NCBI RefSeq assembly: GCF_016405885.1
Contig: NZ_JAEKGC010000001.1
Coordinates: 62,001-126,000, forward strand
Origin: Arthrobacter sp. MSA 4-2
Lineage (GTDB): Bacteria; Actinomycetota; Actinomycetes; Actinomycetales; Micrococcaceae
Length of the DNA stretch: 64,000 bases
Direction: 5' to 3'
In this document: one piece after another, positions 3,820 to 35,581 of the stretch
How positions within the stretch are numbered: position 1 is the first letter of the stretch
Layout: each line of letters opens with the position of its first letter
Translations under genes and position numbers: made by a program
The notes under the pieces: generated by a model
Told to the model about the DNA's origin: nothing
The model's database searches: none
Seen by the model: the letters and a program-made list of their open reading frames with translations, nothing else

Positions 3820-4985
3820 GCCTCGAGTTGGACCGATCCACGTGGAAACGCGTCGCTTTCGGTGACGTCATTGACAGCATTACCGAGCGCGTCGATAACC
3901 CATCGGAAGCCGGGGTTGAGCGATACGTCGGCTTGGAGCACCTGGATCCGGGCGTCATGACAGTTCAGAGGTGGGACTCTCCTGACAAAGTGGAGGCTCA
4001 GAAGCTGCGATTCGCTTCTCGCGACGTGATTTTCGGGCGTCGCCGTGCCTATCAAAGGAAGGTTGCTATGGCCGAGTTTGAGGGCATTTGCTCGGCGCAC
4101 GCGCTCGTCCTTCGAGCCCGGTCTAACTATGTCGACCCCGCATTCCTCCCTGTGTTTCTCTCCAGTGACTACTTCCTCGACCGTGCCATCGAGATTTCTG
4201 TCGGATCATTGTCTCCGACGATCAATTGGCGGGATCTGAAGGTGCAGGAGTTCGACCTCCCGCCCCTCGACCAGCAGAGGCGCATCGCCGATCTCTTCTG
4301 GGCCATCGAAGGCCATCGGTTGGCTCTTCGATCGGCTCAAGAGTCGGCTCGATCACTACTCAGCCACATTCGAGCGGCGATGTTTACGGTCAGAACAGAC
4401 GAAACACGCGCTAATGAGCTATTTCACATAACTATCGGTCGCCAGCGGTCCCCGAAACACGAAAATGGGGATTACATGGTTCCGTATTTGCGGTCGGCGA
4501 ACGTGACCGCCCAAGGCATCGGTGTAGGCGACGTGAAGTCGATGAATTTCACGCCCAAGGAGCAGGAGAAGTTTGCGCTGAAGGCCGGGGATGTGCTCGT
4601 GTCCGAAGCGAGTGCCAGTGCACTTTCCGTCGGTATGCCTGCCGTCTGGCGTGAGGAGATAGCTGGTGTGGTTTGTTTTCAGAACACCCTTCTGCGCTAT
4701 CGCGCCATTGAAGGAGTCTCCGTTCCTGCTTTCGTAGAACACTATTGCCATTGGGCATTTGAAACCGGTGGTTTCCTGTCAGCAGCGTCCGGAACAAACA
4801 TCCGCCACATCGGCGTCGGTGGTGCAACTTCAATGAAGCTGGGCCGATCGACAATCGCCGAACAGCGAGCGTTCGTTCACCAAGCGTCGGCCGTGAATGC
4901 CGCGATCGAAGCGTTGAATAGCGAGCAAAGGACACTGAAAGAGTTGGTGATCGGACTGAGTGACGAAATCTTTGGAGGCAGCTGA
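3816..4985 (+). CDS. hsdS: Type I restriction-modification specificity subunit HsdS
   Basis: This 389-residue DNA-recognition subunit binds the bipartite target and scaffolds the methylase and motor subunits. It has the two-repeat HsdS architecture. Target recognition domain 1 spans about 5-165 and ends in a conserved segment 'LPPLDQQRRIADLFWAIEG', followed by a helical spacer. Domain 2 spans about 205-350, and a second helical conserved segment containing 'AEQRAFVHQASAVNAAIEAL' closes the protein. The two halves end in similar helical elements, as expected for HsdS. The start overlaps the hsdM2 stop (ATGA), and the stop overlaps the hsdR start by one base (TGATG). The target sequence cannot be predicted from sequence alone. 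Confidence 0.93.
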   Translation: MSLELDRSTWKRVAFGDVIDSITERVDNPSEAGVERYVGLEHLDPGVMTVQRWDSPDKVEAQKLRFASRDVIFGRRRAYQRKVAMAEFEGICSAHALVLRARSNYVDPAFLPVFLSSDYFLDRAIEISVGSLSPTINWRDLKVQEFDLPPLDQQRRIADLFWAIEGHRLALRSAQESARSLLSHIRAAMFTVRTDETRANELFHITIGRQRSPKHENGDYMVPYLRSANVTAQGIGVGDVKSMNFTPKEQEKFALKAGDVLVSEASASALSVGMPAVWREEIAGVVCFQNTLLRYRAIEGVSVPAFVEHYCHWAFETGGFLSAASGTNIRHIGVGGATSMKLGRSTIAEQRAFVHQASAVNAAIEALNSEQRTLKELVIGLSDEIFGGS

Positions 4986-7921
4986 TGACTCAATTCAACG
5001 AGGCCAACTCGGTTCGGGACTTCGTCCGGGACCTCGTGAAATCGATCGACGCCCAGTGTCTGGCAGGGAACCAGCTCCCGCGGCGGACGGACGAGGTGAT
5101 GCTGGAAGGTCCGGTCAAGGCCGCGCTCGTCCGACTGAACCCGGAAATTGCTGTCGACCCGAACAAGGCCGACGAAGTCATCTACAACCTCCGTGCGATC
5201 CTGATAGCCGCCCGCACCAGCCCGCATCCCGTCGTAGCCAATGAGGAGTTCATGGCGTGGCTGACCGGACAGAAGTCGATGCCCTTCGGGCCAAATGGTG
5301 AACATACGACCGTTAGGTTGATTAACTTCGACAACCTCGAAGATGACTCATCGAACCAGTGGTGTATATCGACCGAAGTCACGTTCAAACAGGGGCGGGT
5401 GGAGAAGCGATTCGACCTCGTGCTGTGGTGCAACGGTTTCCCTCTTGTCGTGGGTGAGGCCAAGACGCCGGTTCGATCCGCGTACACGTGGATCGACGGT
5501 GCTGCCCAAATCCATGATGACTACGAGCAGAGCGTGCCGCAGTTCTTCGTGCCGAATGTGTTCTCCTTCGCCACCGAAGGCAAAGACCTCCGTTACGGCA
5601 CGGTTGGGATGCCGGTGGAGCTGTGGGGCCCTTGGCGCGAGGAGACGACCAACGAGGATGCTCCAGCCAAGATTGGTCTGGTCGCCGTCAAGGAGGCCGT
5701 CCGCGGCGTCCTCAAGCCGGCGGCTGTCCTCGAGTTCCTGCGGTTCTTCACGATTTACGCCACGGACAAAAAGCACCGCAAAATCAAGATCATCGCGCGG
5801 TTTCAACAGTTCCAGGGAACAAATCTGATCGTCGAGCGGGTCCTGCTCGGCAAGACCAAGCAGGGCTTGATTTGGCACTTCCAAGGCTCGGGTAAGTCGC
5901 TGCTCATGGTGTTTACGGCACTCAAGTTGCGAGCGATGGCCGAGCTGACAAACCCCACGATTCTGATCGTGGTCGACCGTATCGACCTCGACACGCAGAT
6001 CACCGGCACCTTCAACGCTTCCGACGTACCCGGTTTGGTGTCAACGGATTCACGCGCCCAACTGCAAACCCTGCTGAGCCAGGGGGCGCGGAAGGTCATC
6101 ATCACCACGATCCATAAATTCGGTGAGGCGCCCGGTGTGCTCGACGCCCGCGACAACATCATCGCAATGGTCGACGAAGCGCACCGGTCCCAAGAGGGAG
6201 ACTACGGACAGAAGATGCGCGAGGCTCTGCCCAACGCATTCTTGTTCGGTCTAACCGGCACCCCGATCAACAAGCGGGATCGCAACACCTTCATGTGGTT
6301 CGGCTCGCCGGATGACGAGGGCGGCTACCTCTCGCGGTACTCGTTCCAGGACTCGATCCGAGACGGAGCTACGCTGCCGCTGCACTTCGAGCCTCGTTTG
6401 TCCGAACTTCACATCGACCAGGAGTCGATCGACGCGGCCTTCGACGAGCTCGCCACGAATGAGCGCCTGACGGAAAGCGAGAAGATCACTCTGTCGAAGA
6501 AGGCGGCCTCAATCGAGGTGCTGATTAAAACGCCGTCGCGAATCTCAAAAATCGCCGCCGACATTGCCGGGCACTTCAAGTCGAAGGTCGAACCTGAGGC
6601 CTTCAAAGCGCAGGTCGTGGCCTACGACAAAGCATCCTGCGTTGCGTACAAGTCGGAGCTGGACAAGCACCTTGGCTCCGAAGCGTCCACTATTGTGATG
6701 TCGAAGTCCCGGGGCGACTCGCCTGACTGGGCGCAGTGGACTCCCGGTGCGGAGGCACTTGCGCAGATCGTCGCGCGATTCAACGATCCGGCAGATCCAC
6801 TCAAGATCATCATCGTCACCGCGAAGCTGCTCACCGGATTTGATGCTCCGATCTTGTACTGCCAGTACCTCGACAGACCGCTCAAGGAGCACACGCTCCT
6901 CCAGGCCATCACCCGCACCAACCGCGTCTATCCGCCGAACAAGACTCATGGCCTGATTGTGGATTACCTTGGCATCTTCGACGACGTTGCCAGGTCGCTG
7001 GCCTTCGACGAAAAATCCGTGCAGCAGGTGATCTCCAATATCGAGGAACTTAAGGGACAAATTGGTCCCGCCCTCGCGGCTGCGCTTTTGTTTTTTCCTG
7101 GCGTTGACCGAACCGTTGGTGGCTACGAGGGCCTTGTACAGGCGCAGTCGGCGATCGCAAACGACGCGACCAAGGACGCTTTCGGGATGGCCTACAGCGT
7201 CGTGTCCCAGCTTTGGGAAGCGGTCAGCCCGGACCCCATGCTATCGCCGTATCGCGACGATTACCGCTGGCTCACTGACGTGTACGAGTCGGTGCGACCG
7301 TCCGACATCACTGGCCGCCTAGTGTGGCATGCTCTCGGCGCCAAGACCATTGACCTGATCAATGAGCACGTGCAGGTCGAGATCCCACAGGGTGAGGAAA
7401 CGATCATCCTCGATTCCCAGACGATCGAAGATCTCATGACAGGAAAGCGGAACGACGTTCCGCGGGAAGAAATTGAAAGACAGATCACGGCTCGTATCGC
7501 GCGCCACCTCAACAATCCAGTCTTCATCGAGCTTGGTCAGCGGCTCAACGCCCTGCGGGAGAGGTACGCCGATATCCAGCAGTCCAGCCTCGACTTCCTG
7601 CGTGATCTGCTTGAGTTGGCTCGGGACACGGTTGCCGCCGAGAAAGTAGCCGACGACGTGCCTCGCGAAGAGCAGGGCATAGCCGCACTTACAGAACTCT
7701 TCGGTGCCCTCAGGGGTGAGGAGACTCCGATCATTGTCGAGAACGTCGTCAGTCGCATCGATGAGGTGGTCCGCGGTGTGCGCTTCGACGGTTGGCAGTC
7801 GACGATCCGCGGCGACCAGGAGGTCCGGCAGGCTCTCCGCCGGACACTCTACGTCCAGTTCAAAATCCGCGACAACGATGTTTTCGAAAAGGCCCTCGGC
7901 TATGTGCGCGAGTACTACTAA
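4985..7921 (+). CDS. hsdR: Type I restriction endonuclease subunit HsdR
   Basis: This 978-residue motor and nuclease subunit translocates DNA at unmethylated sites and cuts it. The N-terminal PD-(D/E)XK nuclease shows Asp143 in FDLVLW and the E-x-K pair in GEAKTP (158-160). The SF2 motor shows Walker A FQGSGKS (299-305), the DEAH box (397-400), the motif III-like LTGTP, and a motif VI-like LQAITRTNR. A helical C-terminal domain for docking to the methylase follows. Length is typical. The ATG overlaps the hsdS stop by one base, completing a fully coupled four-gene operon. It converges on the leftward helicase gene with about 180 bases between stops. Confidence 0.95.
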   Translation: MTQFNEANSVRDFVRDLVKSIDAQCLAGNQLPRRTDEVMLEGPVKAALVRLNPEIAVDPNKADEVIYNLRAILIAARTSPHPVVANEEFMAWLTGQKSMPFGPNGEHTTVRLINFDNLEDDSSNQWCISTEVTFKQGRVEKRFDLVLWCNGFPLVVGEAKTPVRSAYTWIDGAAQIHDDYEQSVPQFFVPNVFSFATEGKDLRYGTVGMPVELWGPWREETTNEDAPAKIGLVAVKEAVRGVLKPAAVLEFLRFFTIYATDKKHRKIKIIARFQQFQGTNLIVERVLLGKTKQGLIWHFQGSGKSLLMVFTALKLRAMAELTNPTILIVVDRIDLDTQITGTFNASDVPGLVSTDSRAQLQTLLSQGARKVIITTIHKFGEAPGVLDARDNIIAMVDEAHRSQEGDYGQKMREALPNAFLFGLTGTPINKRDRNTFMWFGSPDDEGGYLSRYSFQDSIRDGATLPLHFEPRLSELHIDQESIDAAFDELATNERLTESEKITLSKKAASIEVLIKTPSRISKIAADIAGHFKSKVEPEAFKAQVVAYDKASCVAYKSELDKHLGSEASTIVMSKSRGDSPDWAQWTPGAEALAQIVARFNDPADPLKIIIVTAKLLTGFDAPILYCQYLDRPLKEHTLLQAITRTNRVYPPNKTHGLIVDYLGIFDDVARSLAFDEKSVQQVISNIEELKGQIGPALAAALLFFPGVDRTVGGYEGLVQAQSAIANDATKDAFGMAYSVVSQLWEAVSPDPMLSPYRDDYRWLTDVYESVRPSDITGRLVWHALGAKTIDLINEHVQVEIPQGEETIILDSQTIEDLMTGKRNDVPREEIERQITARIARHLNNPVFIELGQRLNALRERYADIQQSSLDFLRDLLELARDTVAAEKVADDVPREEQGIAALTELFGALRGEETPIIVENVVSRIDEVVRGVRFDGWQSTIRGDQEVRQALRRTLYVQFKIRDNDVFEKALGYVREYY

Positions 7922-8100: not shown

Positions 8101-11100
8101 TTACGGGCGCAGATCTAACGGCTTGTAGGCCTGCCCGTCTTTCATCAATCCCAAAAGGTCATCCTGCCGCGCTTGCCCAAGTGTCAGCCGGTACAGAGCA
8201 AGCTTGGATAGCATCCGCTGGGTTCGCGAAACATCTCGACTGAGCGGGTGGTCGAGCAATCTCCGTTCGATCTTGTGCTCTCCTCGATGAATCCAGTGGG
8301 GAGCAAACTCATTCGCCTCATCCGTGGGAAGGGCACTCACATGGTCTGAGGCGGTTTGAAAGAGGCACTGCCAAGGGTCCGTTACTCCAGGCTTCAGGGC
8401 AGCCGGCCCGTGGAGATTGGCAACGTTCTTTCGCACCGCATGTCCCAGATACCTGTGCACCCGGCCCTCCCGCTGTTCGAAGTCAACGGGGTTGCTGGGC
8501 ACGTTCCAGTGGATTACGGAGTGTGCCCACCAGTGAAAGTCGATACCTTCCTGACCAACTGAGGTGGATGCCAGGACGAAGGGCCAGAACGGGCTGTTAA
8601 AGGCCCTGCGGACGTCGGGCATGCGGTTGCTCTCGCCGTCGTCGGTCTTGACATTGCTATACCGCACGGCGAAACGGACGCCCATCCGAAGATCCTCAGA
8701 CGACTTAGATCTGTCCGGATGCTTGGCAAGCATCTGTGCGGGTTTGAGGGACAAGGAGCGTCGTATGTCGTCCGCCAGGTCCCACAGCTGCTCTGAAGTC
8801 ATGACGCCCGGGCCCTGCTGGCTGCGGAGCTGGAAGACGTACTCATCCAGGACTGCTTGCAGGTTACCTGCTTCGCAATACCGGAGGACCTTCTGCCAGT
8901 AGTCGTCTCCCGGGTAGAGCTTGTCCAGCAGTTCCGTGGCATCAAGTCGGTTGAATAGCGTTCGGAGGCCGGTAGCTGCGAAAACGGACGCCTTCCAGAG
9001 CTCGGTTCCGTCGAGGTCGTCGGGGGTGACGCGTTTCATGGAACGGTAAAGGCAGTTGGCAGGCGAATTGACGATCAGATCTTCAATGCCGTCCTCCCAT
9101 CCAGTTAATTCGCCGGAAGTACCCTGCAGCATCCGGTCAATGTGAGCCAAGTAGAGCCCCGCCTCGGGTCCTCCGTCATGATCGGAATCGCCCGCGTCGG
9201 TGGCTCTGCCGAGTTGCTGGGTGAACTCATCGAGTCGCCACAGTTCGCCTCTTGCCAGATCGGGGTCGTTGTTCCAGCCCGCCGGGAGTGCGCCAGGGAA
9301 AGAGAAATAGGAAGCCCAGACGCCGAGGCGACTGGCAGCGCCGACAGGTACGCCGTCCACCTTCGCTCGGGCGGCAGCTGCAGCGGCGTCCCGAACAACG
9401 GCGCCCGGCACTGGCGATCCACTCATCGAGGCATGCTCCAGTGGATCACCCACCATTGCCAGGCCAGCATGCGGGATGAACAGGGCCAAGGTGGACATAG
9501 CTTGCGGTTCACCGTCCCGCACTCGAAAGCGCAGCCGTCCGCGAAAGCGTTTGCGCGCCTCCGCAGTGTTTTCTCCGTGCAACGGAGATTCTTCCAACAC
9601 CTGCCGCTCGGCGTCGTAGGAGAGCAAGGTGCTGATCGCCGTAGGTGCGGCGTTCCATGCCGAAAAAATCAACTGCTTGGTGACTTCCGGGCCGACCTCA
9701 CTGTAAACACCGGTCGGCTCGATATAAGGGAGGGAGGGCGGAATCCAAAGCAGCTTCCACCAGCCTTGATCAATGGTGTGCTCGCGGACTGCCCGGTACT
9801 TCGCGTTGTCGGTGTCGATGGCACCGTATCGGCGATAAGTGTCGGGGTCGATAGTCGCCAGAGTTGGAAGGATGGGGTCGATCGACCTGCGGTCGCACTG
9901 GATTTTTCCGTCCAGCATTCTCCCGACCTTGTAATCGGTCAGGAAGTGCGCGAAAAACGGTACGGACTTCCAATACTCCATTGAGCTGCCTGCGTGAGCG
10001 GCACGAAACAGGGTGGATAGGGAACGGTAGCTGATCAGGTCGCCCGCACGGACATCAACCGGTGCCATGTCGATGACCGACAGCATGTCGTCTTTTCCGA
10101 GCTGTGGACGCTCGGTGCGGCTCATGAACAGTTTGAGGTCGTTCTCAATGTGACGTGTCAGGGTGCTGTCGGGAGCTTGGTTCACAAGCTGGTGTCTACG
10201 CTTGTCCAGATTGCCTTCAAGGCGCGAAATGTACTCCATGCTGTCTTCACTCAGGAACCGCATCAGCTGTCGGAAATCCGCTGCATGGTCATCCCCGTCA
10301 GCTTCTACAGCGGCGGTATGCGCCTTGTACGGAGTGGCGGAAAGGAGGATTAGCTTGGCGCCCTTGTAATTGAGGAACTGCCGCGCCAGCTCGGCCGAAG
10401 AATCCTCTTCGTCCTGCACCGTGCCGGGGGAGTAAAGCAGATCCCGGAAACGCTGAAACTCGTCCAGAATGATGAGGTCCGGCTCTAGACAGTCTAGACC
10501 TGCCTGTGCTAGGTCTCCTCGAAGCCCGCTGATGATCTCGCTCATGCGGGGACGGACTGTCTCCGTCCCGTCCCGGAGTGATTGACGCAGTGCTTTCCGG
10601 AAGGCCGCCAGGTTGCCGCTCTTCCGTGCCAGAGTGTGAAATCGTCTCCGCACGGAGGGTACGAAGCCGTCCGGGAACTGTTCGTGCATGTACCGGACGC
10701 GCCTGGCGAAACCTGGGCCGGAGGCGGTCGCGCGGAGAAGCTCCACGGCGTCCTGATGCTGCTCCTCGTCGATGACGCCCAGCTGCGTCAAGAAACGGAA
10801 AAGTACGGCCCGTTCCTTGGCCTGTCCGGTGGCACCGCCGACGTTGAACGAAGTTCCGGGCGTCAACGAGATGAAGTTGACCCGTTTCCGGGTTCCGGGC
10901 GCGGCCGGAGCATTGAGCTTGGTCAACTCGGTGGGAAGGAGCGTTAGCCTGCCGGACTCAATGATGTCCGTTTGCCCGGTAACGTTCAGCCGCCCGAGGT
11001 TCTGTTTGGCCAGATCGGCGTTTGAGCATACGTACACGATGTCAATACGGCTCACGCCGGAGTTGGGCCGGTCGAGTCGTTCGATGGCTTTCGCTATAAC

Positions 11101-11259
11101 TCCGCGGGCCACCATGCTTTTGCCAAGCCCCGTTTCATCGGCGACCAGGAAGCGGTCCGCTGGTTGCTCGTCCAAATAGAGGCGCTTGAAGACGTGTTCT
11201 ACTGTCCGGCGTTGAAAGCCGCGGAGGCCGTCGAGGGCGGGCGCTGCATCAAACCCCAT
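8101..11259 (-). CDS. SF2 helicase of a DUF6361-PLD-helicase defence-type cassette
   Basis: This 1052-residue superfamily 2 helicase has Walker A DETGLGKS (41-48), a DEFQ box (266-269), LLSATPY (306-311), and a C-terminal helicase half near 905-960 with STSVGQEGIDFHWW and the arginine-finger-like QREGRVHRYLG. There is a long insert between the two RecA lobes and a C-terminal tail ending in PLDLRP. The order resembles the SNF2/DISARM DrmD-type helicases of defence loci, but I see no DISARM methylase, drmA or drmB nearby. The start overlaps the upstream PLD gene by 11 bases, so it is the last gene of a coupled three-gene unit. Helicase activity is secure; a role in phage or plasmid defence is inference from context. 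Confidence 0.9.
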   Translation of the reverse strand: MGFDAAPALDGLRGFQRRTVEHVFKRLYLDEQPADRFLVADETGLGKSMVARGVIAKAIERLDRPNSGVSRIDIVYVCSNADLAKQNLGRLNVTGQTDIIESGRLTLLPTELTKLNAPAAPGTRKRVNFISLTPGTSFNVGGATGQAKERAVLFRFLTQLGVIDEEQHQDAVELLRATASGPGFARRVRYMHEQFPDGFVPSVRRRFHTLARKSGNLAAFRKALRQSLRDGTETVRPRMSEIISGLRGDLAQAGLDCLEPDLIILDEFQRFRDLLYSPGTVQDEEDSSAELARQFLNYKGAKLILLSATPYKAHTAAVEADGDDHAADFRQLMRFLSEDSMEYISRLEGNLDKRRHQLVNQAPDSTLTRHIENDLKLFMSRTERPQLGKDDMLSVIDMAPVDVRAGDLISYRSLSTLFRAAHAGSSMEYWKSVPFFAHFLTDYKVGRMLDGKIQCDRRSIDPILPTLATIDPDTYRRYGAIDTDNAKYRAVREHTIDQGWWKLLWIPPSLPYIEPTGVYSEVGPEVTKQLIFSAWNAAPTAISTLLSYDAERQVLEESPLHGENTAEARKRFRGRLRFRVRDGEPQAMSTLALFIPHAGLAMVGDPLEHASMSGSPVPGAVVRDAAAAAARAKVDGVPVGAASRLGVWASYFSFPGALPAGWNNDPDLARGELWRLDEFTQQLGRATDAGDSDHDGGPEAGLYLAHIDRMLQGTSGELTGWEDGIEDLIVNSPANCLYRSMKRVTPDDLDGTELWKASVFAATGLRTLFNRLDATELLDKLYPGDDYWQKVLRYCEAGNLQAVLDEYVFQLRSQQGPGVMTSEQLWDLADDIRRSLSLKPAQMLAKHPDRSKSSEDLRMGVRFAVRYSNVKTDDGESNRMPDVRRAFNSPFWPFVLASTSVGQEGIDFHWWAHSVIHWNVPSNPVDFEQREGRVHRYLGHAVRKNVANLHGPAALKPGVTDPWQCLFQTASDHVSALPTDEANEFAPHWIHRGEHKIERRLLDHPLSRDVSRTQRMLSKLALYRLTLGQARQDDLLGLMKDGQAYKPLDLRP

Positions 11260-13126
11260 GAATGTCTCCTACCTTCAATGCCTCGGTGGCGGCTGTCCAC
11301 AGCGCGTGCAGCCGTTGCACTTCCGGATCGTCGCCGCTCAGGGAGAGCAACCTGTCGATAACGACTTCCAATTCGGGGAAGATCGACCGGGCGTCGGGAC
11401 CCGCCATAGCTCCCACAATCGCCTCAAAGAGACCCGCGCTGGATCCGTCACCGAACCCCGAGCCCGCGAACCAGCCGGTGCCGGTACCCAAAGCCGGCAG
11501 GGCGTCCTCCGGGATGAGAAATAGAAGGAGGAATTGCCGAAGCTTTTGTGGATCGTCCAGCTGTCGGGCCACGATCTCGTCCAACCTCCCTGGGGGATCG
11601 GTACGGAGGCTGCCTTGAATCACCGTGCTCTTGGATAACCCAGCCCTCGGGTCCTCCAACGTCAGCACTAGAAAAGGAGTCACATCTGCGAGTGGGATGG
11701 CGTGGAACACGTGAAGATGCTGAACCTCGGCAGGCTCGACAACGCTCAGTTGGGGAATGGAGAGGAGCCGAATTTTTGCGGTGAACTCCGGTTTGGGCGA
11801 CCAACCATGTTCAACCGACACCGTGAACGCTCGCTCGATGGCATCGTCGGGTACTGCGTCAAGGACGAACTGTTGGGCCGCCGCGTCCCGGAGCGCGTTT
11901 TCCAGTTTCAATGCGGCCTCATCATCCTCTGATCTAGCCTCGCCTCCGCTGCCCAGATAGTCGGTGAACGGGACGTCCTTGAGGCTTTCCTTAATCCGCT
12001 TCACTCCAAGGCGCTTCTGGGCTCCTCGCATTTCAAGCAGGAACTCCACATTCCGGGTGAAGCCCGCCTCGGTGGCATTGGCTGAACCGAGGAGTGCATA
12101 AGTGAAGTGGTCGTAGTCGCAGAAATAGGCCTTAGCGTGCAACCCGGTGAGGTCGTTAGCCAGAAGCTGGTTTCCCGATTCGTCATTGCCAATCAGTCCT
12201 GATTCCGCCGACTCGGGAATGCCAAGCTCGTCAAAGGCCTTGAAGGAAGTTCGATCGTCTCCGACCGTCTCTCTCGAGAGAAGGTCCACCTGATCGCCGC
12301 GTGAATAGATGGCCAGATTTTGGGTCCATTTGTCCTGCAGCCTGCCAATCAACGTGTCATCGAGGAAGGGTGATACGACCAGTTTCTCCCGGCCGAGGAA
12401 AGCGGCGTCCCCGGTCTTCTTATTGAGCGCAATGAAGTTCTCTGGATCCCGGAGGTGCGCGACGATGGAGCCTTGTTCAAAGTTCTCGCCCGTACCCATC
12501 GGCCGGAATGCCAAGTGGTGTATATCCTCGGGCAGGTCCCACCGAACCGAGGCCAGGCGGGAGGCAAGCCCGCCTACTCGAGCCAGTCTCTCTTCGTCGG
12601 GAGTCACTGTGCACAGGTCAGGAAGGCCAGCAATGAATCGCGCCAATGGCCCGCTATCCGGACCGACGAGACCGGCGTCCTCGACTGGTTCACCGTCCAG
12701 CCGGACGAGGAGGTCCCAACTGGCATCGGCGGTAAGATTCCGGCTGCTGCATAGGAAGCGGTAGCGGCGCTCCGTATCGTTCTCGAATTCGAGGAGCCAG
12801 ATTTTTGGATGGAAAAGGCCGCGCTTGACGCTGACTTGGTGAACCATGGGCTCTAGGAGCGCGAGTAGGTCGGACGCATCCGCGGGTGCCTTGATATGGC
12901 CCGCCTGGCAAAAGATGTCCACACGGTCGGAGACCTTCCGAAGCGCGCTGAGGACCGCCACCGGATTCGTGAATTCCTCCCCTGAACCGGATACGAAGCT
13001 CAATGGGACTGAAAGAGCACTCGTCATGTCCAAGGTAAAGGTGGTTCCGACGGCATGGGAAAGCCGGAACCCGGCGGGCGGTCGCAGTTGTTGCGTGAGT
13101 GCTTGCCTGTTCGCTGCCTCAAGCAT
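11249..13126 (-). CDS. Phospholipase D-superfamily protein (dual HxK motifs), probable nuclease
   Basis: This 625-residue protein has two PLD-type half-sites. The first has HPK at 106-108 followed by SSRN (127-130); the second has HAK at 330-332 followed by GSANATEAGF (347-356). Such paired HxK...N motifs form one active site and, in bacterial defence and repair proteins, usually belong to nucleases rather than lipases. No signal peptide or membrane segment is present, so it should be cytoplasmic. About 200 C-terminal residues follow without a recognised motif. It overlaps the DUF6361 gene upstream by 8 bases and the helicase downstream by 11, so the three proteins are probably made in fixed ratio and may form a complex. 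A motif-level nuclease call is reasonable; its substrate is unknown. Confidence 0.85.
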   Translation of the reverse strand: MLEAANRQALTQQLRPPAGFRLSHAVGTTFTLDMTSALSVPLSFVSGSGEEFTNPVAVLSALRKVSDRVDIFCQAGHIKAPADASDLLALLEPMVHQVSVKRGLFHPKIWLLEFENDTERRYRFLCSSRNLTADASWDLLVRLDGEPVEDAGLVGPDSGPLARFIAGLPDLCTVTPDEERLARVGGLASRLASVRWDLPEDIHHLAFRPMGTGENFEQGSIVAHLRDPENFIALNKKTGDAAFLGREKLVVSPFLDDTLIGRLQDKWTQNLAIYSRGDQVDLLSRETVGDDRTSFKAFDELGIPESAESGLIGNDESGNQLLANDLTGLHAKAYFCDYDHFTYALLGSANATEAGFTRNVEFLLEMRGAQKRLGVKRIKESLKDVPFTDYLGSGGEARSEDDEAALKLENALRDAAAQQFVLDAVPDDAIERAFTVSVEHGWSPKPEFTAKIRLLSIPQLSVVEPAEVQHLHVFHAIPLADVTPFLVLTLEDPRAGLSKSTVIQGSLRTDPPGRLDEIVARQLDDPQKLRQFLLLFLIPEDALPALGTGTGWFAGSGFGDGSSAGLFEAIVGAMAGPDARSIFPELEVVIDRLLSLSGDDPEVQRLHALWTAATEALKVGDIHGV

Positions 13127-14327
13127 GCGATTGCTCTTCCCTCATCAGGCCTGCTTGGATGTCCAGGACGTTCCGGCGCACCTGCGACCAGCGGAACGTC
13201 AAGGCGGCCACCCGGGAAGGTGGCTGCCAGACGCGAAGCCGGCGTTCATTGCGGAACCGTGAGTTGGATTTCTTCATGCGTTTCTCCCGGATCTCGACAG
13301 CTGCACGAAAGCGTCCGTTGTCGATCAATCTGCTGGGGCTCACGGCGGCCTCATACATGGTCTTTGTGAAGTCGGCGGTATTGCTGTTGATCCCGCGGTT
13401 GAGCGATTTGGCACGGTCGATGAAACGGTCGATATCCCATCCCATGAGGAGATCAAGCTTGCTGGTCCGCTCGTCTTCCCATTCCTCAAGCAGTTTCTCG
13501 GTGGATTCCAGACTTTCCCTGCCCGTCGAGAACGCCGAGGCTGAGGCCTCAGCCAGCAACTGTTGATAAAGGATGCTGGCGCCGTGGTGAATGAAGGAGA
13601 ATGCCTCAGCATCTTCAAGCCATTGAGCGGGCTCGCCGTCGGCGCTGCGGCACACCGGTTCCAGCCAGGGTGCCCAGAGATCGGCGGCGGGGGCGACGTC
13701 AGATCCTGCGAGGTGAGCCAGCATAGTCCCGTTGCACGTGGTGAGGATGCGCTCCTGAAGCCAACGGGCCTCTCCCTGTGAGAGCTTCAGTCCACACACT
13801 TCCGTTTGCGGAAATCCCTCAGGAGGCAGTGGCAGAGTCTGGTTCCAGACCGCGAAGGAGTCATCGCCTTCTTCCGGTGGGGGCGTATTCGAGCACATCA
13901 GCTGGGTTACGGCCGCGCGGTCAGTTTCGGGATGGACGATCCCGTAGCGTCTTAGAGCCGTCCAGTAGGCAGCAGATGGAAGTTGCATAACGTTCCTGCC
14001 TGCATCGCTGCCGATGAAACTCTTTTCGCCGATCTCCTTGAGCCGGCCGATGAGCTGCCGCTCCGATTCCTCGGCCCGCTTGCGCAGGTCATCCGGATCT
14101 TTCGTGCTTTCGCGGGAAGAGAGATAGGCCCACGGCACAAGCAGCAGATAACGCGCGCCTAGGTGCAGGACCGAGGTGCCGGGAAACAAACTGTTACTGA
14201 TCGCATCGCGCAACTGACCCATACCGAGGTCATCAGTGGTTTCCGGCGTGCCGAATAATTTCACCAGCTCACGCATTCTCGAGTTTTCCTCGGTGGATGC
14301 ATCGAGCCAGGAAATAGTTGACGCCAC
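13119..14327 (-). CDS. DUF6361 family protein
   Basis: This 402-residue protein opens with 'TISWLDASTEENSRM' and later 'LFPGTSVLHLGARYLLLVPW', the signature start I associate with the DUF6361 family. That family has no defined biochemical role and is repeatedly found beside PLD-like proteins and helicases. There is no catalytic motif that I can point to, no signal peptide, and the C-terminal third is rich in Arg and Lys (nucleic acid binding is possible). It is the first gene of the coupled triad, with its stop 8 bases inside the PLD gene. It starts opposite a BRCT gene across a 161-base gap, which must carry a divergent promoter. Confidence 0.85.
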   Translation of the reverse strand: MASTISWLDASTEENSRMRELVKLFGTPETTDDLGMGQLRDAISNSLFPGTSVLHLGARYLLLVPWAYLSSRESTKDPDDLRKRAEESERQLIGRLKEIGEKSFIGSDAGRNVMQLPSAAYWTALRRYGIVHPETDRAAVTQLMCSNTPPPEEGDDSFAVWNQTLPLPPEGFPQTEVCGLKLSQGEARWLQERILTTCNGTMLAHLAGSDVAPAADLWAPWLEPVCRSADGEPAQWLEDAEAFSFIHHGASILYQQLLAEASASAFSTGRESLESTEKLLEEWEDERTSKLDLLMGWDIDRFIDRAKSLNRGINSNTADFTKTMYEAAVSPSRLIDNGRFRAAVEIREKRMKKSNSRFRNERRLRVWQPPSRVAALTFRWSQVRRNVLDIQAGLMREEQSHA

Positions 14328-14488
14328 CAGTAGACCTTACGCGTAGAAGTTAGATGAGCACAGCATGTTCCTGCCCCCAAGTCTGACATCAATCATTCAG
14401 TAGCGTGCCAGACCTTGCCTTATTCTGACGGTTGGTACTGACGTTATCGTCGATCGACTTATTCACTTGAGAAGACAGGCTTGTCGAA
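14328..14488. promoter_or_regulatory. Divergent promoter region, DUF6361 triad and BRCT gene
   Basis: These 161 bases separate the leftward DUF6361 start from the rightward BRCT start and are locally more AT-rich than their surroundings. Both transcripts should begin here. I could not fix a -35/-10 pair or an operator by eye. Confidence 0.45.
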
Positions 14489-14848
14489 ATGGGCAGAAGG
14501 GCTTGCGTGGGAGCCGACCATTCCCTTGAGGGGCATACGGTTGCGCTGACAGGAAAGGTAAGCGTTAGGGGTGAGCGTCTTTTCCGTCCGGAACTTATTG
14601 AGATCCTGCTGCATCGGAATGCCACCTATAAGGACGACGTTTCGCGTAAGGTCTCGCTGCTCGTCCATGGAGATTTGTCGAGCCAGCACGTAGTGAACGA
14701 GTGGGAGCAGCATAGCCAGAAGTTGGAGCAGGTAAAGCACGAAGCAGCCCGCGGCCACCATATTTGCGTCATCACCTCGCGGGGGCTCACTTCCCTGATG
14801 GCAGGTGAACCAGCGGAGTGTCGCCTATGGCGTTACCTGCACCGCTAG
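14489..14848 (+). CDS. Stand-alone BRCT-domain protein
   Basis: These 119 residues are almost entirely one BRCT-like domain. A beta strand (HTVALTGKV) carries the T-G of the phosphate pocket. It is followed by a helix ending in a residue pattern for 'pair of strands' (RKVSLLVHGD) and 'K...EAARGHHICVITSRGLTSLM'. This matches the ligase/PolX-type BRCT layout of strand, helix, 'vs.k...LV.g', 'K...A...gi.vi....l'. BRCT domains bind DNA ends or phosphoprotein partners. It lies on the opposite strand inside the leftward nuclease-helicase series and has its own terminator, so it is separately transcribed. Start choice is open: ATG 14489 or a GTG a few codons later. Domain call by motif only. Confidence 0.75.
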   Translation: MGRRACVGADHSLEGHTVALTGKVSVRGERLFRPELIEILLHRNATYKDDVSRKVSLLVHGDLSSQHVVNEWEQHSQKLEQVKHEAARGHHICVITSRGLTSLMAGEPAECRLWRYLHR

Positions 14849-14868
14849 TGGATGCAATCCACTAGCGG
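14842..14868. terminator. Perfect 12-bp hairpin at the BRCT stop codon
   Basis: CCGCTAGTGGAT (14842-14853) and ATCCACTAGCGG (14857-14868) form a perfect 12-bp stem with a 3-base loop. The BRCT stop codon TAG (14846-14848) is inside the left arm. The hairpin sits between the converging BRCT and 14896-15543 genes and could stop transcription from both sides, although a T-run is absent. Confidence 0.65.
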
Positions 14869-14895
14869 CCAGCTGCAGTGTCTTGACGCAGAAGG

Positions 14896-15543
14896 TCATT
14901 GAGCGCCTCCACATAATCTGCCTTCGACGTGCCGCCTGAGCGAGGCTGGGCTGATCACCGAAGTCCCGCTAATGAGGGAAGCAAGGCTCGTCCCGTCCAC
15001 GGTGTCGAACACCGAAAGACGAGCCAAGCGGAGGGACGAACTCGACAACGCTGCAGCATCCTTCATCGAGTCATAGAGTGCGCGTTGCTTCCAGCGTGGC
15101 GAGCCTCCGCCCTCAAATGAGCGCGGTTCAGCGGCTGGACCGAACATCCGCTCGCAGGAGGGATTCGTCCACCGTTTTCCCCAACTGCCGGCGCCGAGGC
15201 AGACAGCTTCTTGATTTAGGGATTGCTGCTGGTAGTCCGCCCGCCAAGGCAGGTCCACTGTCCAGTCTGCCCCCAGTGTCTCGGTACGGTAGCGGTTGAA
15301 GTGCAGCTCCTCGTCAAGCTCGACTACCAAACCGCCTGCAAAGGCGAGATCCCAAGCGCCCGGACGCAAAGACGGAGTAGGGTTCGAGCCTCCAAACGTG
15401 CGGTACGTGTGGAGGACGCTCTGTGCAAGGTTTCCCTGGATATCAGCCAGCCGCGGGGGCGCCGGGACGGCGGCTGCCGGCCGAAAGCCTGCTTCCTCCA
15501 AGAGTGTCCTTAGTGCGGTAGCACGTTGTCCAGTTCTGACCAT
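14896..15543 (-). CDS. Small protein with restriction-endonuclease-like core (DUF7255-like)
   Basis: This 215-residue protein has a central motif around 62-85 in which Asp65 (GAWDLAF) is followed by 'LVVELDEELHFNRY'. The spacing of an Asp in a strand, a glycine-rich turn, then E-x-D-E with a following HF is like the PD-(D/E)XK/DUF559 pattern, where a comparable strand reads V-E-x-D-G. I associate it with the uncharacterised DUF7255 group, but the family name is not certain. The C-terminal half is Ser/Leu-rich and helical with no motif. It lies 55 bases after the UvrD-like start region's gene end and on the same strand, so it is probably co-transcribed with the AddAB-like pair. Nuclease activity is inference. 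Confidence 0.6.
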   Translation of the reverse strand: MVRTGQRATALRTLLEEAGFRPAAAVPAPPRLADIQGNLAQSVLHTYRTFGGSNPTPSLRPGAWDLAFAGGLVVELDEELHFNRYRTETLGADWTVDLPWRADYQQQSLNQEAVCLGAGSWGKRWTNPSCERMFGPAAEPRSFEGGGSPRWKQRALYDSMKDAAALSSSSLRLARLSVFDTVDGTSLASLISGTSVISPASLRRHVEGRLCGGAQ

Positions 15544-15598
15544 GATGCGATTCGCCTTTCAGTGAGAGCTTAGGACTCGCAAATTGCTGCAACGTCTG

Positions 15599-18500
15599 TC
15601 ATGCGACTTTGTACACCTTCCCCAGCGCGGGCAGATGAATCAGGATCTCGATAACCGGCTTTCCGGTGACCGCCAGAATCGCTTGGCGATACGTGTCCAT
15701 TTGCCCGAGGTAGTGGTCCCTGATGTGACCAGCCGGATCCTGCCCCGGGTAGCTCTTGTGATCGATCAGCACATAACCCGCGGGGATCTCCAGCAGGAGG
15801 TCGATCCACCCTTCCATCACCTGGTCCTGCTCATTCCGCCACGCGATGGGTGCTTCCCGGTACTGGACTGCATTGGGGTAGGAAGCCGAAAGGAAATCGG
15901 CCAGCCGTTCGCCGGCTACCAGGAGAACATCGGCACTGACGAGGTCGCCCACCCGCCACCGGTCGACGATCTGCTTCGCAAGTCCCAGCTGGTCACTCTG
16001 CGCCAAGGCGCCGTACTCGGTACCGAGGAACGCATGAATCGCCGAGCCCACCGCATCCCAGCCTCGATCACCATGGGGAATCAGCCGGTTACCAAGATCG
16101 GCATGCTCGCTCACGGTTTCCAGCTGCGAGCCTGCCTGTTGCTTGCTTGCCTGGATCCGGGCAGACGGATACTCCACCAAGGTCCGGGGGACGACGACGT
16201 CAGTGTATTGAGCACCCAAAGCTCCCGGATTGAGGGCGGCCTCCTGATCAGCGGTATAGGTGTACACGTCAGCGGGCATCGGTTCAGCAGTGCCCGCAAT
16301 GGAGATCAATCCTTCACTTCCCTCACCGGACCACGACACCAGGCTTTTGATCCCTAGATCATTCAAGCCTGCAGGTGCGGGCCCTTTCGCAGTGAGAATC
16401 GTTGTCGAGACCGACCGGGTCATCCCGACGTACAGCAGCCGTGCCGCGTTGCGGCGCTCACGCGCCTCGTTCCGAGCCAGGACGTCCGAACTCTTCGCCG
16501 CAGTGTCCAAGGGGGAACCCCCGTAGGGGAACGGCGACGGCCAGAACCGGATCCACCGGCCGGCAAGGGGATTACTGAGGTCGAAGTCGTCATCGCTCTC
16601 CACCGCTGTACCGAAGGCCCGGGCTCCGACCTCCCGGTCGAGGCTTTCCATCACCACGACCGGCCACTCGAGACCTTTCGCTTTGTGATAGGTCAGCACG
16701 TTGACGACGTCGTCCCCGGAGTTCTCCGCTCCCATGGCGTCTGCGTCAGCAAGGAAGCGAAGACTGCCGCGCAGGGTCCCGGGTGTCCGCAACGCCTTGG
16801 ACGCCTCGTAGTAGTTGTTGAGCTCCGCGCGCACGGCGTCGAGGTTGCGCAGGCGCGTCTCCGGCACGGACCAGGCCTTGATCAGCTGCGGAAGGTTGAG
16901 TGAGCTCACCACTCCCTCGAAGACCTCGGTGGGTGTCGCGCGGCTGGCCCGGCTTCTCAGCGAGGTGAGTGCCGCGCAGACCGGGTCCGCGGCCCAGCCG
17001 GCCAGCGTCTCGGACGGTTCGGCCGACCCGAGCAATTCCTGCTGCCAGCTCTGGTGGCTTCCATGGTCGGGGTGCAGGGCGACGATCTCGGTCAATGCCA
17101 CGGTGTCCCATGCATCGGCGACGAAGGCCATCGCCGCACGGGCGAGCTGCACCTCCCGTGCACTCATCAGCGGTTGACTATTGAGGCTCGCCCGGACCCC
17201 GAGTGCGGCGAGGGAGGCAGCGATCGTCTCAGCCTCCTTGTTCGTTCGGGTGAGCACGGCGACGTCGGACGGTTTCAGTTCCCGCCGCGTCAACAGGTCG
17301 GCCACACCGGCGGCCGTCGCCGCAAGGCGGTCCCCGTCCTTGCCTGCCGGTCGGTTCCAGACCTCCAGAGAGCCCGCCGGCCAGCCGGCATGGTCAGGGG
17401 TGATCGTCAGCGTTACTGTCGCTGGATCCATTCCCGCCGACTCGAACACCGGAACGAAGACGGCGTTGGAGAGGTCGATGACGGACTGCCGCGACCGCCA
17501 CGAATATTTCAGCTGGCGCTTCTCCGTTACATGGGCAACGACGGCGTTCATCAGCTCGGGGTCGGTCTCCCGGAACGCGTAGATTGCCTGTTTCGGGTCC
17601 CCGACCCACACTGCCTGTTCAACGAGCCCGCTGAGCTGCAGGAACAGCTCGAGCTGCAGGGGGCTGGTGTCCTGAAATTCGTCGACGACGAGGAACCGCA
17701 CCCGTTGGGCGAAGGAGCTGCGGAAGGCCTCGTTGTCGCGCACCAGTTTCAGGGCGAGCGTTTCCTGGTCAATGAAGTCGATCACTCCGTGCAGTCGTTT
17801 GAACTCGGCGAAGGCGTCCATGCATTCGGCCGCGCAGGCGTAGACGAGCCGGATGAACTGTTCGACGTCGTCGTGAAATGCCGGATTGGAGAGCAGCCCC
17901 TCCTTGAACGCCGTCACCGGGCCCTCAAAGATCCGCTTGATCGGTGCTGAGGCCCCCGATGGAACAACACCGCGCCACTGCTCCCACGAAATGTCCTCCA
18001 CCGAGGTCAGGGCGGTGATGCGGTCGACAATAGTGGGGAAGTTGTTGGTGAAGCTCGCGGCCGTCGTATTGACCGACTTCCCGTTCGAATCGACGCTGCT
18101 GCGGGCCACCGCTTGGAGGTCGGGAAGGCACTGGCGGAACTGGTGAAGCCAGCTGGGCCGGTCGTCGGTGTCAGCCCGACGCTCCAGCAGGGATTGATAG
18201 CCCAACCAGGACCGCTCGGCACACCCTGCGAGGTCCCGCGGCGCGAGGAGGTTGTTGCGGGCGGCGTCGCAGATGCTGCGCACCAGGGACGCCCATTCGT
18301 TGTCCTCCGCCATGCTCATCCGGCGTGCGATCGGAAGAATACGGTCGGAGTATTCGGCCAGGACACTGTCGGTGGCGAGGTGGAAAATGCCGTCCTGCTC
18401 ACCCTCGGCAATCGGTTCGAGCGCGGGGGAGAGGCCGGCGTCGATCGCATATTCGGTCAGCAGACGGCTGCAGACGCTGTTGACGGTTCCAATGAGGCTC

Positions 18501-18745
18501 ACCGACAACTGCTGTGCGGCGTCCTTCAGCTGCTGCGTGTCCTGAGTGCCCTTAGGTGCGTCGAGCAACCTGGCCGCGATGCGCTCCTTCAGTTCACCGG
18601 CAGCCTTCTTGGTGAACGTCGTCGCCATGACACCCGACGCCGGTACACCCGCCGCGATCTGGTCGGCAATGACGTTGGTCAGGTAGTGCGTCTTGCCAGT
18701 GCCGGCGCTCGCCGAGACCATCCGGACGTTTCCTAGCTCATTCAT
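15599..18745 (-). CDS. UvrD/AddA-like ATP-dependent helicase-nuclease
   Basis: This 1048-residue SF1 helicase with a C-terminal nuclease module resembles AddA/RecB. Visible motifs are Walker A SAGTGKT (13-19), TTFTKKAA motif Ia, VVDEFQDTS (about 352), the motif III-like GDPKQAIYAFR, a late 'LTYHKAKGLEWPVV' motif V, and ARLLYVGMTRS motif VI. Near the C-terminus, G-W-I-D...LIDHKSYPG matches the RecB-type PD-(D/E)XK core. I start it at the ATG (18745-18743) that overlaps the upstream stop as ATGA; the in-frame start at 18796 would overlap further and has no reason to be used. It should work with the AddB-like partner as a DNA end-processing complex. Confidence 0.9.
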   Translation of the reverse strand: MNELGNVRMVSASAGTGKTHYLTNVIADQIAAGVPASGVMATTFTKKAAGELKERIAARLLDAPKGTQDTQQLKDAAQQLSVSLIGTVNSVCSRLLTEYAIDAGLSPALEPIAEGEQDGIFHLATDSVLAEYSDRILPIARRMSMAEDNEWASLVRSICDAARNNLLAPRDLAGCAERSWLGYQSLLERRADTDDRPSWLHQFRQCLPDLQAVARSSVDSNGKSVNTTAASFTNNFPTIVDRITALTSVEDISWEQWRGVVPSGASAPIKRIFEGPVTAFKEGLLSNPAFHDDVEQFIRLVYACAAECMDAFAEFKRLHGVIDFIDQETLALKLVRDNEAFRSSFAQRVRFLVVDEFQDTSPLQLELFLQLSGLVEQAVWVGDPKQAIYAFRETDPELMNAVVAHVTEKRQLKYSWRSRQSVIDLSNAVFVPVFESAGMDPATVTLTITPDHAGWPAGSLEVWNRPAGKDGDRLAATAAGVADLLTRRELKPSDVAVLTRTNKEAETIAASLAALGVRASLNSQPLMSAREVQLARAAMAFVADAWDTVALTEIVALHPDHGSHQSWQQELLGSAEPSETLAGWAADPVCAALTSLRSRASRATPTEVFEGVVSSLNLPQLIKAWSVPETRLRNLDAVRAELNNYYEASKALRTPGTLRGSLRFLADADAMGAENSGDDVVNVLTYHKAKGLEWPVVVMESLDREVGARAFGTAVESDDDFDLSNPLAGRWIRFWPSPFPYGGSPLDTAAKSSDVLARNEARERRNAARLLYVGMTRSVSTTILTAKGPAPAGLNDLGIKSLVSWSGEGSEGLISIAGTAEPMPADVYTYTADQEAALNPGALGAQYTDVVVPRTLVEYPSARIQASKQQAGSQLETVSEHADLGNRLIPHGDRGWDAVGSAIHAFLGTEYGALAQSDQLGLAKQIVDRWRVGDLVSADVLLVAGERLADFLSASYPNAVQYREAPIAWRNEQDQVMEGWIDLLLEIPAGYVLIDHKSYPGQDPAGHIRDHYLGQMDTYRQAILAVTGKPVIEILIHLPALGKVYKVA

Positions 18746-21396
18746 GAGAAGTCCCCCTTCAATCCACAGAGCCTGCTGAAGTTGCAGAAAGTACACGGCG
18801 GTTTGGCATAGAACCGGCCGGCCGCCGCTGCCAGCTCCTCACCGGACGGCCCACCTTCAGCCACCCGCCCCGCCTCGACCAGCGGATCCGCCGTAACACG
18901 CCCGTTGAGGACCTCCTCGACTGAAAACTCCGCTGCCTTCACGGCCTTGTTCCACAGAGTCTCCGGGTCCTGCTCACTGATGAGCTGATTGCCGAAGGCC
19001 GGATTGGTCGATGCGAACGTCCCCTGCTTGAGAAGGTAGTAGGCCGCCGGGGCGGCCTGAGCACCCTCCTCTTGGAGCGACCACTGATAGAGCGCGAGCT
19101 GGAGTGCCTTGCCCTCCCGGACCTCGGACACCCGGTATTTGTCCCTGTTGCTCCACTTGAGATCGATCACCACTGGCCGCCCGGCGTCGTCAATTCCGAC
19201 GACGTCGACCGAGCCCTTCACCGGCAAGGTGACAGGTTCCCCGCCCACCATAAGGTCGAGGTCCTTCTCGAAGGGATGCTCCACCGACTCAATGGAGATT
19301 CCGGCGGCGCTAAGGGTCGAGAAGAACTTCATGACCGAGTCGAGCACAATCGTCCGGATGTTCTTGAGCCGTGCACTGTTGCCCGGCAGCAGGAATTCCG
19401 AGGCGAAGTGAGGCAGCAGTGCCTCCAACTTCGCTTCGATCTCCTCGGGCGTCGGCACTGCCCGGTGCGCGGAGGAGAGATCATGCTGGAGTTCCTCAAC
19501 TAGCTTGTGGACGAAAGTGCCGATCATCTTGTTGCCGCTTGGAGCACTTTCTGCATCCGCCGGCCGGATTTTCGCCTTCTTGTCGAGCACCCATGCCAGG
19601 GAACAGCCCAAGAGATTGCCCAGCTGGCTGAAGGACAGGGAAACAGGCAGAAAGTCCGGGCGGCGGCCGACGCCGAACGAAGCCGGTGGCGCGGTGATGG
19701 GCCGCCGGGGAACAGGAACCAAGGCTGCTGAACGGCACGCAAGGTGCCAGCGGCTGTCTTGGATGGTCTCGTCAGTGGAGACGGTCACTGCGGCAACCCG
19801 TGCTCGCAACAATTCCGCCGTACCCGACGGCCCGGCTTTCGCTGGCTGCGCCGCCACGAGGGCCTCAAGCAGGGGGTTCCCCTCCAACCGCTCACCGTCG
19901 AGCTGTGCTGTTGTGACGATGAGCAGGTTTCGGCAGCGCTGACTCGCTGCAAGTGTCTGAGACACCTGCAGTGCGGCCATGCTTTCGGGGGTGGGCAGCT
20001 GTACGCCAACAGCAGCAAGGGCGGCCATGTCCTGAGCGTCCCAACGGCGGGCCCGTGGGCTGGATGCGGACTGGAAACCCCACCACAGCACGTCGTCGAC
20101 GTCGTCCATCAACTCGGACAGGTGATTGAGCCGGAGCCAGGGTGAGGCCTCGGCGGGGGCAAGCGGGCTCGAACTTTCGGCCATCACCGAGGAGATGATG
20201 CGGCGCAGGTCGGTGCGCGAGACGGCAGGGAGTCCCGAGATGAGGGACAGGAGGGTCTGCAGCTGCGCCGCCGTCGACTTCAGTTCCTCGTCATGTGCCG
20301 CGAGGGCGCCCAGGCGCCTTGCAAGCCATGCTGCCTTGGCGGCAAGTTGCGCACCGGTCACTCCGCTCTCCTCAAGCAGGAGCGCACTTGAGAAGAGACT
20401 GTCGAGCTCCGCGGCGATTGCGGGTCCCCGTTCCAGATCCGCCGCAATGTTCTCGAGGGCTTGCTTCCAGGCAGGCCCTCCGGTCCCGGGCTCCGCCTTG
20501 AGTGCGCCAAGGAGTTCCCGGGCGGCGCGCCCGCGCACGGGACCGACCGGCAGCGAGAGGAACTCACCTAGGAGCTGGACGTTGACGGGACCCCAAATCA
20601 CTTCCATGAAAAGCGGGATGATTTGATCCTGCGCTCTCCACCGGGACTTGGCGCCGACGCCGAGACGGGGGAGATCATGGGTACCGAGATAGTGGTCAAG
20701 CACGGACGTCGGGTGGGAGGTCACCACGGCAGTGCTGGGCAACAGCCCGGCATTATTGGGTGAGTTGGAGGCGAGCCACCCAGCACTATGCTCTGCAGCT
20801 TCCCATTCCGTCTCTGCCTGCAGGACGGTGATCCGCGGCCATGCATCCGCAGCGACGCCAGGCTCCAGAACGAGGGTTCCACGGGCTTCCAACCTGTCCA
20901 GAATGCGCTGCCAAATCTCGGGGAAGGACTCGCGCGGATGTTGCAGGAGGATCGTTGAGATACCAAGTGCCAAGGGAGAGTCGAGGGCGCTGACGAGATC
21001 AGCGATATCGTCGGCGAGTGCAGGGGAGAGAGGTAGCCCAATGTGCTCCAGCGCAGACAGGGTGCGGAGGAGCTCCGAGGTGGCCCCTGCGGGAAGCTGG
21101 CCATCCCACCCGTTGGCAATGAGATCGTCGCGTGCGTCGAGGAGTTCGTGGGCGGTTGACCACGGGTCGACCGAAAAAGAATGGTGGAACCAAGCATCGG
21201 CCTGGTCAAGCTCCTGCAACCGGGCAGTGTATTGATTGACGCGGTCGGTGTGTGAGACTTCCGGGCGGGTGATGCCTAGGCGGGTCTGGAGGAGTCCAGT
21301 GAATCCGAGGGGACCCACGCGGACGGCGTTCAGCCCGGGATTGTTGAAGGCCCACGGTGCGCGGTCCAAAAACCAGCCGAACTCTACTTGCATCAT
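18742..21396 (-). CDS. AddB-like PD-(D/E)XK nuclease with Cys cluster
   Basis: This 884-residue protein has an AddB-like layout. A large N-terminal region without a Walker A motif (an inactive helicase-like scaffold) precedes a C-terminal RecB-type nuclease. Here 'SLSFSQLGNLLGC' (about 585-600) opens the nuclease domain with the first Cys of an iron-sulphur staple. G-S-V-D...VIDLKWS (about 742) gives the D...D-x-K active site. PCTFCNFSRLCG at the extreme C-terminus supplies the other three Cys. The start is one of two consecutive ATGs at 21396. The stop overlaps the UvrD-like start by 4 bases, so the two are coupled like addB-addA. This is not the AdnAB pair usual in actinobacteria, which has two UvrD-like subunits. 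Confidence 0.85.
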   Translation of the reverse strand: MMQVEFGWFLDRAPWAFNNPGLNAVRVGPLGFTGLLQTRLGITRPEVSHTDRVNQYTARLQELDQADAWFHHSFSVDPWSTAHELLDARDDLIANGWDGQLPAGATSELLRTLSALEHIGLPLSPALADDIADLVSALDSPLALGISTILLQHPRESFPEIWQRILDRLEARGTLVLEPGVAADAWPRITVLQAETEWEAAEHSAGWLASNSPNNAGLLPSTAVVTSHPTSVLDHYLGTHDLPRLGVGAKSRWRAQDQIIPLFMEVIWGPVNVQLLGEFLSLPVGPVRGRAARELLGALKAEPGTGGPAWKQALENIAADLERGPAIAAELDSLFSSALLLEESGVTGAQLAAKAAWLARRLGALAAHDEELKSTAAQLQTLLSLISGLPAVSRTDLRRIISSVMAESSSPLAPAEASPWLRLNHLSELMDDVDDVLWWGFQSASSPRARRWDAQDMAALAAVGVQLPTPESMAALQVSQTLAASQRCRNLLIVTTAQLDGERLEGNPLLEALVAAQPAKAGPSGTAELLRARVAAVTVSTDETIQDSRWHLACRSAALVPVPRRPITAPPASFGVGRRPDFLPVSLSFSQLGNLLGCSLAWVLDKKAKIRPADAESAPSGNKMIGTFVHKLVEELQHDLSSAHRAVPTPEEIEAKLEALLPHFASEFLLPGNSARLKNIRTIVLDSVMKFFSTLSAAGISIESVEHPFEKDLDLMVGGEPVTLPVKGSVDVVGIDDAGRPVVIDLKWSNRDKYRVSEVREGKALQLALYQWSLQEEGAQAAPAAYYLLKQGTFASTNPAFGNQLISEQDPETLWNKAVKAAEFSVEEVLNGRVTADPLVEAGRVAEGGPSGEELAAAAGRFYAKPPCTFCNFSRLCGLKGDFS

Positions 21397-25877: not shown

Positions 25878-25960
25878 GACTTGCGTCCGGTTCAATGAGT
25901 TCGGGGCGCTCGCTGAACTCTCAGTACTCTCTCTATCGCAACTATCGAAAAGAGCCACAC

Positions 25961-35326: not shown

Positions 35327-35581
35327 ATGGAAACGGCCAAGGAAACAACCAGCGCTCCGCGGGCCCGACGACGACGCCTGTGCCCGGTCTGCCGGTCCGG
35401 GGCGTGGCGCATCGCCTACGGGATGATCCTGCCCGATCAGCAGGCCACAATGCCCAACACCGTGTTCGCCGGCTGCTGCATCCAGATGCGTGAGCGCCGG
35501 AACCCGAAGACAGGGGAGCGCGAACTGGGAACGCCGGCCTGGCAGTGCCAGAACCCGGACTGCGGGCACGAGTGGTGGTGA
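35327..35581 (+). CDS. Small zinc-ribbon-type protein
   Basis: This 84-residue protein has CPVC near residue 20, a Cys-Cys pair near 55, and CQNPDCGHEWW at the C-terminus, so four or more Cys could bind zinc in a ribbon. The N-terminus is Arg-rich (ARRRRLCP). ATG 35327 is preferred to the in-frame start at 35171, which lies upstream of a region without protein-like character. Nothing more can be said about function. It converges on the damaged HNH gene with 60 bases between stop codons. Confidence 0.55.
   Translation: METAKETTSAPRARRRRLCPVCRSGAWRIAYGMILPDQQATMPNTVFAGCCIQMRERRNPKTGERELGTPAWQCQNPDCGHEWW

Follow-up and report, generated by a model that had tools for sequence, protein, structure and literature searches.

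Azaca and an accessory AddAB-like helicase-nuclease pair as probable separate modules of a predicted defence island in Arthrobacter

The DNA analysed here (the window, 64,000 nucleotides from Arthrobacter sp. MSA 4-2) carries six minus-strand genes between positions 8101 and 21396, and the question raised by this locus is whether they form one composite defence system or separate modules that share an island. An initial annotation had favoured the composite, joining a triad of genes to a helicase-nuclease pair and a small sixth gene. The open reading frame list placed all six genes where they had been described, including the overlaps of 11 and 8 bases within the triad, which is contiguous on one strand in A-B-C order (Table 1). 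The proposal of a defence locus was likewise borne out. A type I restriction-modification (R-M) system is also present next to the six genes. With moderate confidence, we interpret the stretch as part of a defence island with two separate modules, Azaca and an AddAB-type pair that would act on linear foreign DNA.

Table 1. Positions of the six genes and of associated features in the window.
Feature	Position	Strand	Evidence or remark
ZacC, SF2 helicase of Azaca	8101..11259	-	PADLOC ZacC 1004.7 bits
ZacB, two-HxK PLD protein of Azaca	11249..13126	-	PADLOC ZacB 475.8 bits
ZacA, DUF6361 protein of Azaca	13119..14327	-	PADLOC ZacA 355.4 bits; Pfam DUF6361 134 bits
Perfect 12-bp hairpin	14842..14868	.	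Within the 568-bp DUF7255/ZacA gap
DUF7255 protein	14896..15543	-	Pfam 160.7 bits
AddA-like SF1 helicase with C-terminal RecB-family nuclease	15599..18745	-	Pfam UvrD-helicase and PDDEXK_1
AddB-like protein, RecB-family nuclease, without Walker A	18742..21396	-	Fe-S-type cysteines C598, C868, C871, C877
Type I R-M system (two HsdM, HsdS, HsdR)	830..7921	+	Adjoining the six genes
DUF6308 gene	25895..26653	+	Pfam 206.5 bits

From its sequence, the triad is predicted to be the known anti-phage system Azaca (ZacABC). The initial annotation had recognised no named system in these three genes; the PADLOC match, to a system named in the literature, settles the triad as known and rules out a new one. 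The earlier description of a dual-HxK PLD protein held: each of the other 14 rows of the ZacB alignment, representing 12 distinct loci, carries both H106-x-K and H330-x-K. In ZacC, Walker A and DEFQ are conserved among the relatives aligned. The window proteins are approximately 25–40% identical to the other Azaca proteins compared. Azaca is said to have been described by Millman et al. 2022. In the accessible portions of two later sources, Azaca is listed among defence systems with a PLD-like domain (PMC10952713) and its mechanism is given as unknown (PMC10482375).

The AddAB-like pair showed conserved active sites: the Walker A motif and the nuclease residues H, D, D, K and Q were found in all 29 AddA-like proteins aligned and the nuclease active-site residues in all 29 AddB-like proteins, none of which has a Walker A motif. 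Structure prediction for the AddB-like protein gave an inactive helicase fold joined to a RecB-family nuclease, which is the AddB/AdnA fold. The two genes adjoin each other in 20/20 order-level regions, in 30/30 named contigs (many from the same genomes) and in all 17 plasmid neighbourhoods examined out of 27 records. A correlation of AddA and AddB distances (r 0.98) was discarded as evidence for the pair because shared ancestry alone yields such a correlation. The alignment also showed that five AddB-like members from Brevibacterium, Dermabacter and Variovorax (L057, L058, L066, L064, L134) have lost all four Fe-S-type cysteines with their nuclease residues intact.

That the pair is additional to AdnAB, as had been suggested earlier, agrees with the position of the host AdnAB on another contig than the window and with the distribution of AdnAB in our order sample of 248 genomes. 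A host AdnAB subunit query matched 225 of these genomes, including all 20 with an AddB-like protein, which rules out the pair as an AdnAB replacement. In the window's own genome this query gave one match and left the pair unmatched at the cut-off; among the matches listed, the AdnAB-subunit match lies away from the pair in eight carriers. In the accessible text of a survey, AdnAB is described as exclusive to Actinobacteria (PMC6452273).

Beyond the 20 order genomes, the AddB-like protein was found in 5 of the 366 genomes of the phylum sample (at 1e-30) and in neither of two congeners. In Brachybacterium the pair is near-core, occurring in 13 of at least 15 genomes of the genus (genus names taken from the matching contigs). 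The AddB-like query matched 27 plasmid records, 26 of them over 80% of the query length. Pattern searches of viral contigs returned 30 matches, none confirmed as a relative by tblastn, and the one phage record matched was a faecal scaffold marked unverified and lacking annotation.

Neighbourhood analysis of 10 non-Brachybacterium loci (9 genomes, 75 neighbours) showed matches to 93 PADLOC families at 1e-15, with MzaA, PbeA, type II methyltransferases, ZacA, ZacB, DpdF and DrmD among the matches listed. At 10 Brachybacterium loci, the 75 of 81 neighbours compared matched no PADLOC family at 1e-15, and eight of ten neighbours fell into named housekeeping-type Pfam families (glutathione peroxidase, SPFH, sulfatase, transpeptidase, PfkB, aldo-keto reductase, LacI and MFS). 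On plasmids, defence genes (restriction, CBASS, Azaca, ThiF/Mov34/multiubiquitin, SIR2, AbiE) lie within approximately 10 kb of the pair in 12 of 17 neighbourhoods, according to a list compiled from product names after the names had been read; three others have toxin-antitoxin or WYL genes only and two have none. None of six control stretches placed arbitrarily on six of the same plasmids contained genes of this defence list, and one of them (L152) has unnamed nuclease and helicase genes. The 10 plasmid records outside this reading were repeats of species or strains already covered, an unannotated Sinorhizobium fredii record and a Methylocystis rosea fragment. This association of the pair with defence genes spans more than one phylum. 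Six of the 17 plasmid neighbourhoods contain ThiF or ubiquitin-like genes, which in L147, L148 and L149 lie just upstream of AddB, and a functional link of the ThiF/Mov34/multiubiquitin genes to the pair is possible. The plasmids with ThiF, Mov34 or multiubiquitin genes near the pair belong to Rhizobium, Bosea and Bradyrhizobium (L147, L148, L149, L136, L145, L151), and in L148 DUF6527 is found between the ThiF/ubiquitin-like gene and AddB.

AddAB enzymes enter DNA at an end, move by means of the AddA motor and cut both strands. By analogy, the pair would load on free double-stranded ends and travel along the DNA on its only active SF1 motor, that of AddA, while its two RecB-family nucleases cut both strands. 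The likely target would be linear foreign DNA, whether phage genomes on entry into the cell or ends created by Azaca and the adjoining restriction system, and the pair would work beside AdnAB and independently of it. The defence neighbourhoods, the patchy spread and the coexistence with AdnAB suggest degradation of linear DNA of foreign origin, or of ends left by adjoining nucleases; the end-degrading activity, the defence role and a possible handover from these nucleases are inferred. In the literature covered by our search, which lacked most subscription papers, the pair is nowhere described as belonging to defence, and we regard it as an accessory variant of AddAB with a credible predicted defence role.

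A broader reading, which we put forward tentatively, is that of a mobile 'immune AddAB', a two-subunit end-degrading helicase-nuclease that would by itself constitute a defence module in Actinomycetota, Pseudomonadota and Bacillota. It would operate beside DNA-opening (Azaca, restriction) or protein-tagging (ThiF/ubiquitin-like) systems, perhaps as a second RecBCD-type complex unaffected by phage inhibitors of the resident one, and in Brachybacterium would have become a fixed part of the chromosome. Complexes of the RecBCD type usually count as housekeeping enzymes, and an accessory AddAB-type pair, often plasmid-borne among defence genes, would place such a complex in the immune repertoire. 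The accessible part of a preprint proposes that antagonists of RecBCD, AddAB and AdnAB are common among phages (PMC12407980). The pair would allow a direct test of whether cells keep an end-degrading enzyme in reserve for phages that inhibit the main one.

The near-core, housekeeping-type setting in Brachybacterium counts against the defence reading and would suit a role in general repair. This can be interpreted as a second, general DNA-break repair complex, backing up AdnAB and merely riding in islands, with which both the AddB/AdnA fold of the predicted structure and the conserved Brachybacterium locus agree. However, an AdnAB subunit is already present in every carrier of the order sample, and outside Brachybacterium the pair is patchy, absent from both congeners, carried on plasmids of which many are conjugative, and located among defence genes, which makes the repair back-up rather unlikely.

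We consider a single composite system, in which Azaca would cut or unwind foreign DNA and the pair together with DUF7255 would resect the ends, very unlikely and mostly refuted. Strong ZacA matches were obtained in 12 of the 248 order genomes (14 at 0.001), and ZacA and AddB-like were found together in 4/248 order genomes and 1/366 phylum genomes. Azaca and the pair do lie close to each other in the window, in Brevibacterium and in Methylocystis parvus. Three of the four order genomes have both within 25 kb: that of the window, that of Brevibacterium aurantiacum (G156/L110), at a distance of 1.4 kb, and that of B. yomogidense (G170/L128), at approximately 6 kb; in the fourth (G244) they are 87 kb apart. 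In B. yomogidense, the AddB copy closest to Azaca is split over two reading frames, which weakens this instance, and this copy was omitted from the tree. ZacA occurs in 4 of 20 AddB-like carriers in comparison to 8 of 228 other order genomes (Fisher p 0.010, uncorrected for relatedness); for non-Brachybacterium carriers, a subset chosen afterwards, the values are 3/7 and 9/241 (Fisher p 0.003, likewise uncorrected). In the phylum sample ZacA was found in eight genomes (at 1e-20), with AddB-like only in that of the window. Plasmid records with ZacA numbered 34 or 45 in two queries in comparison to 27 with AddB-like, and the two shared records are both from M. parvus, where ZacA-ZacB-ZacC-small gene-AddB-AddA run on one strand and encode proteins 25–34% identical to those of the window.

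In the tree, three different clades hold the AddB-like proteins from the window, from B. aurantiacum and from M. parvus, so that Azaca and the pair have probably come to adjoin on more than one occasion, in differing orientations; this recurrence favours the composite, whereas the separation of Azaca and the pair in most genomes and plasmids and their variable order and orientation argue against it. Azaca is also not known to include the pair or DUF7255 among its defining genes. Within the window, the hairpin-containing gap separates the Azaca group from the AddB-AddA-DUF7255 group. The hairpin lies 27 nt after the DUF7255 stop, and a 70-nt stretch of the region folds at -30.7 kcal/mol (z -3.2), a stability equalled by 2 of 200 shuffles; the hairpin has no T tract and is absent from the terminator scan list, and we regard it as the probable end of the AddB-AddA-DUF7255 transcript. 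The DUF7255 protein bears only a weak resemblance to the endonuclease fold in structural comparison with restriction-fold nucleases and is not mentioned by name in the literature searched. It occurs in seven of 248 order genomes, two of which have AddB-like (12 kb apart in one of the two), which weakens its candidacy as a fixed partner; DUF7255 is tied to neither Azaca nor the pair. The pair is probably a separate defence module and not part of Azaca. The proximity seen in Brevibacterium and Methylocystis would be compatible with a facultative partnership, and given a co-occurrence above independent draws in the order sample, a functional link is possible. In G244 (L082), Azaca is 30–34% identical to that of the window and adjoins a type I R-M system with M and R subunits 83–85% and HsdS 35% identical to those of the window. 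In Methylocystis sp. MJC1, a protein labelled 'phospholipase D-like' and encoded upstream of the pair was a candidate ZacB remnant but gave no ZacB match.

The least probable reading, that the pair serves mobile elements and not the host, by aiding plasmids or islands when they conjugate, process ends or compete with one another, is in line with 17 of the 27 plasmid records being typed conjugative but appears highly improbable, given chromosome-sized contigs with the pair in several actinobacterial genomes (for example G011, G118, G146, G199, G222) and neighbours that are more often defence genes.

Apart from Azaca and the pair, an assortment of other genes was observed in the island. The two HsdM genes of the type I R-M system are adjacent. 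DUF6308 recurs near the pair in some Brevibacterium loci and directly follows an AddA-like gene in L110, L122 and L123; as a partner it was rejected, and it is probably a general defence-island gene, because 37 of the 43 order genomes with DUF6308 (among 248) have no AddB-like protein. A second AddA-like gene of B. aurantiacum (L058/L110, 13589-16312) matches residues 269-1064 only, has no adjoining AddB-like gene and is followed by DUF6308. Further along the window are a NERD-UvrD protein (27828-29507) and a PLD-ResIII-DUF3427 type IV-like enzyme (29797-32952); relatives of the former (69-71%) recur close to AddAB-like pairs in L050 and L099. The island extends rightward with a GmrSD C-terminal domain protein (35437-36717) and an HSDR_N-domain protein (38988-40085). 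A strong AT skew (up to 0.29) covers a 1064-aa open reading frame at 42794-45988 that has no Pfam match at 1e-5.

In comparison with known systems, the window triad agrees with Azaca in the nearly full-length match of all three proteins, in gene order and in overlapping genes, and no difference was found. The pair resembles Bacillus-type AddAB in its two subunits, one SF1 motor, two RecB-family nucleases, AddB fold and Fe-S-type cysteines retained in the window AddB-like protein. It differs in that the AddA-like protein scores 172 bits against NCBIfam addA_Gpos (cut-off 707.65), a PDB search with the AddB-like profile gave no chain at 0.01, AddB-like lacks Walker A, the host already has AdnAB and the cysteines are absent from the aligned Brevibacterium, Dermabacter and Variovorax members. 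AdnAB has motor domains in both subunits, unlike the pair. With Gabija (GajAB) the pair shares a UvrD-type helicase and has a generic PADLOC GajB match (120 bits), but the helicase partner here has a RecB-family nuclease and Pfam matched PDDEXK_1 only, with no OLD/TOPRIM. UvrD-Cas4 fusion proteins of defence loci, as described in the accessible part of PMC5704561, likewise fuse an SF1 helicase with a nuclease of the RecB/Cas4 type and occur close to restriction and WYL genes, whereas the AddAB-type pair of the window has two subunits, one of them AddB-like.
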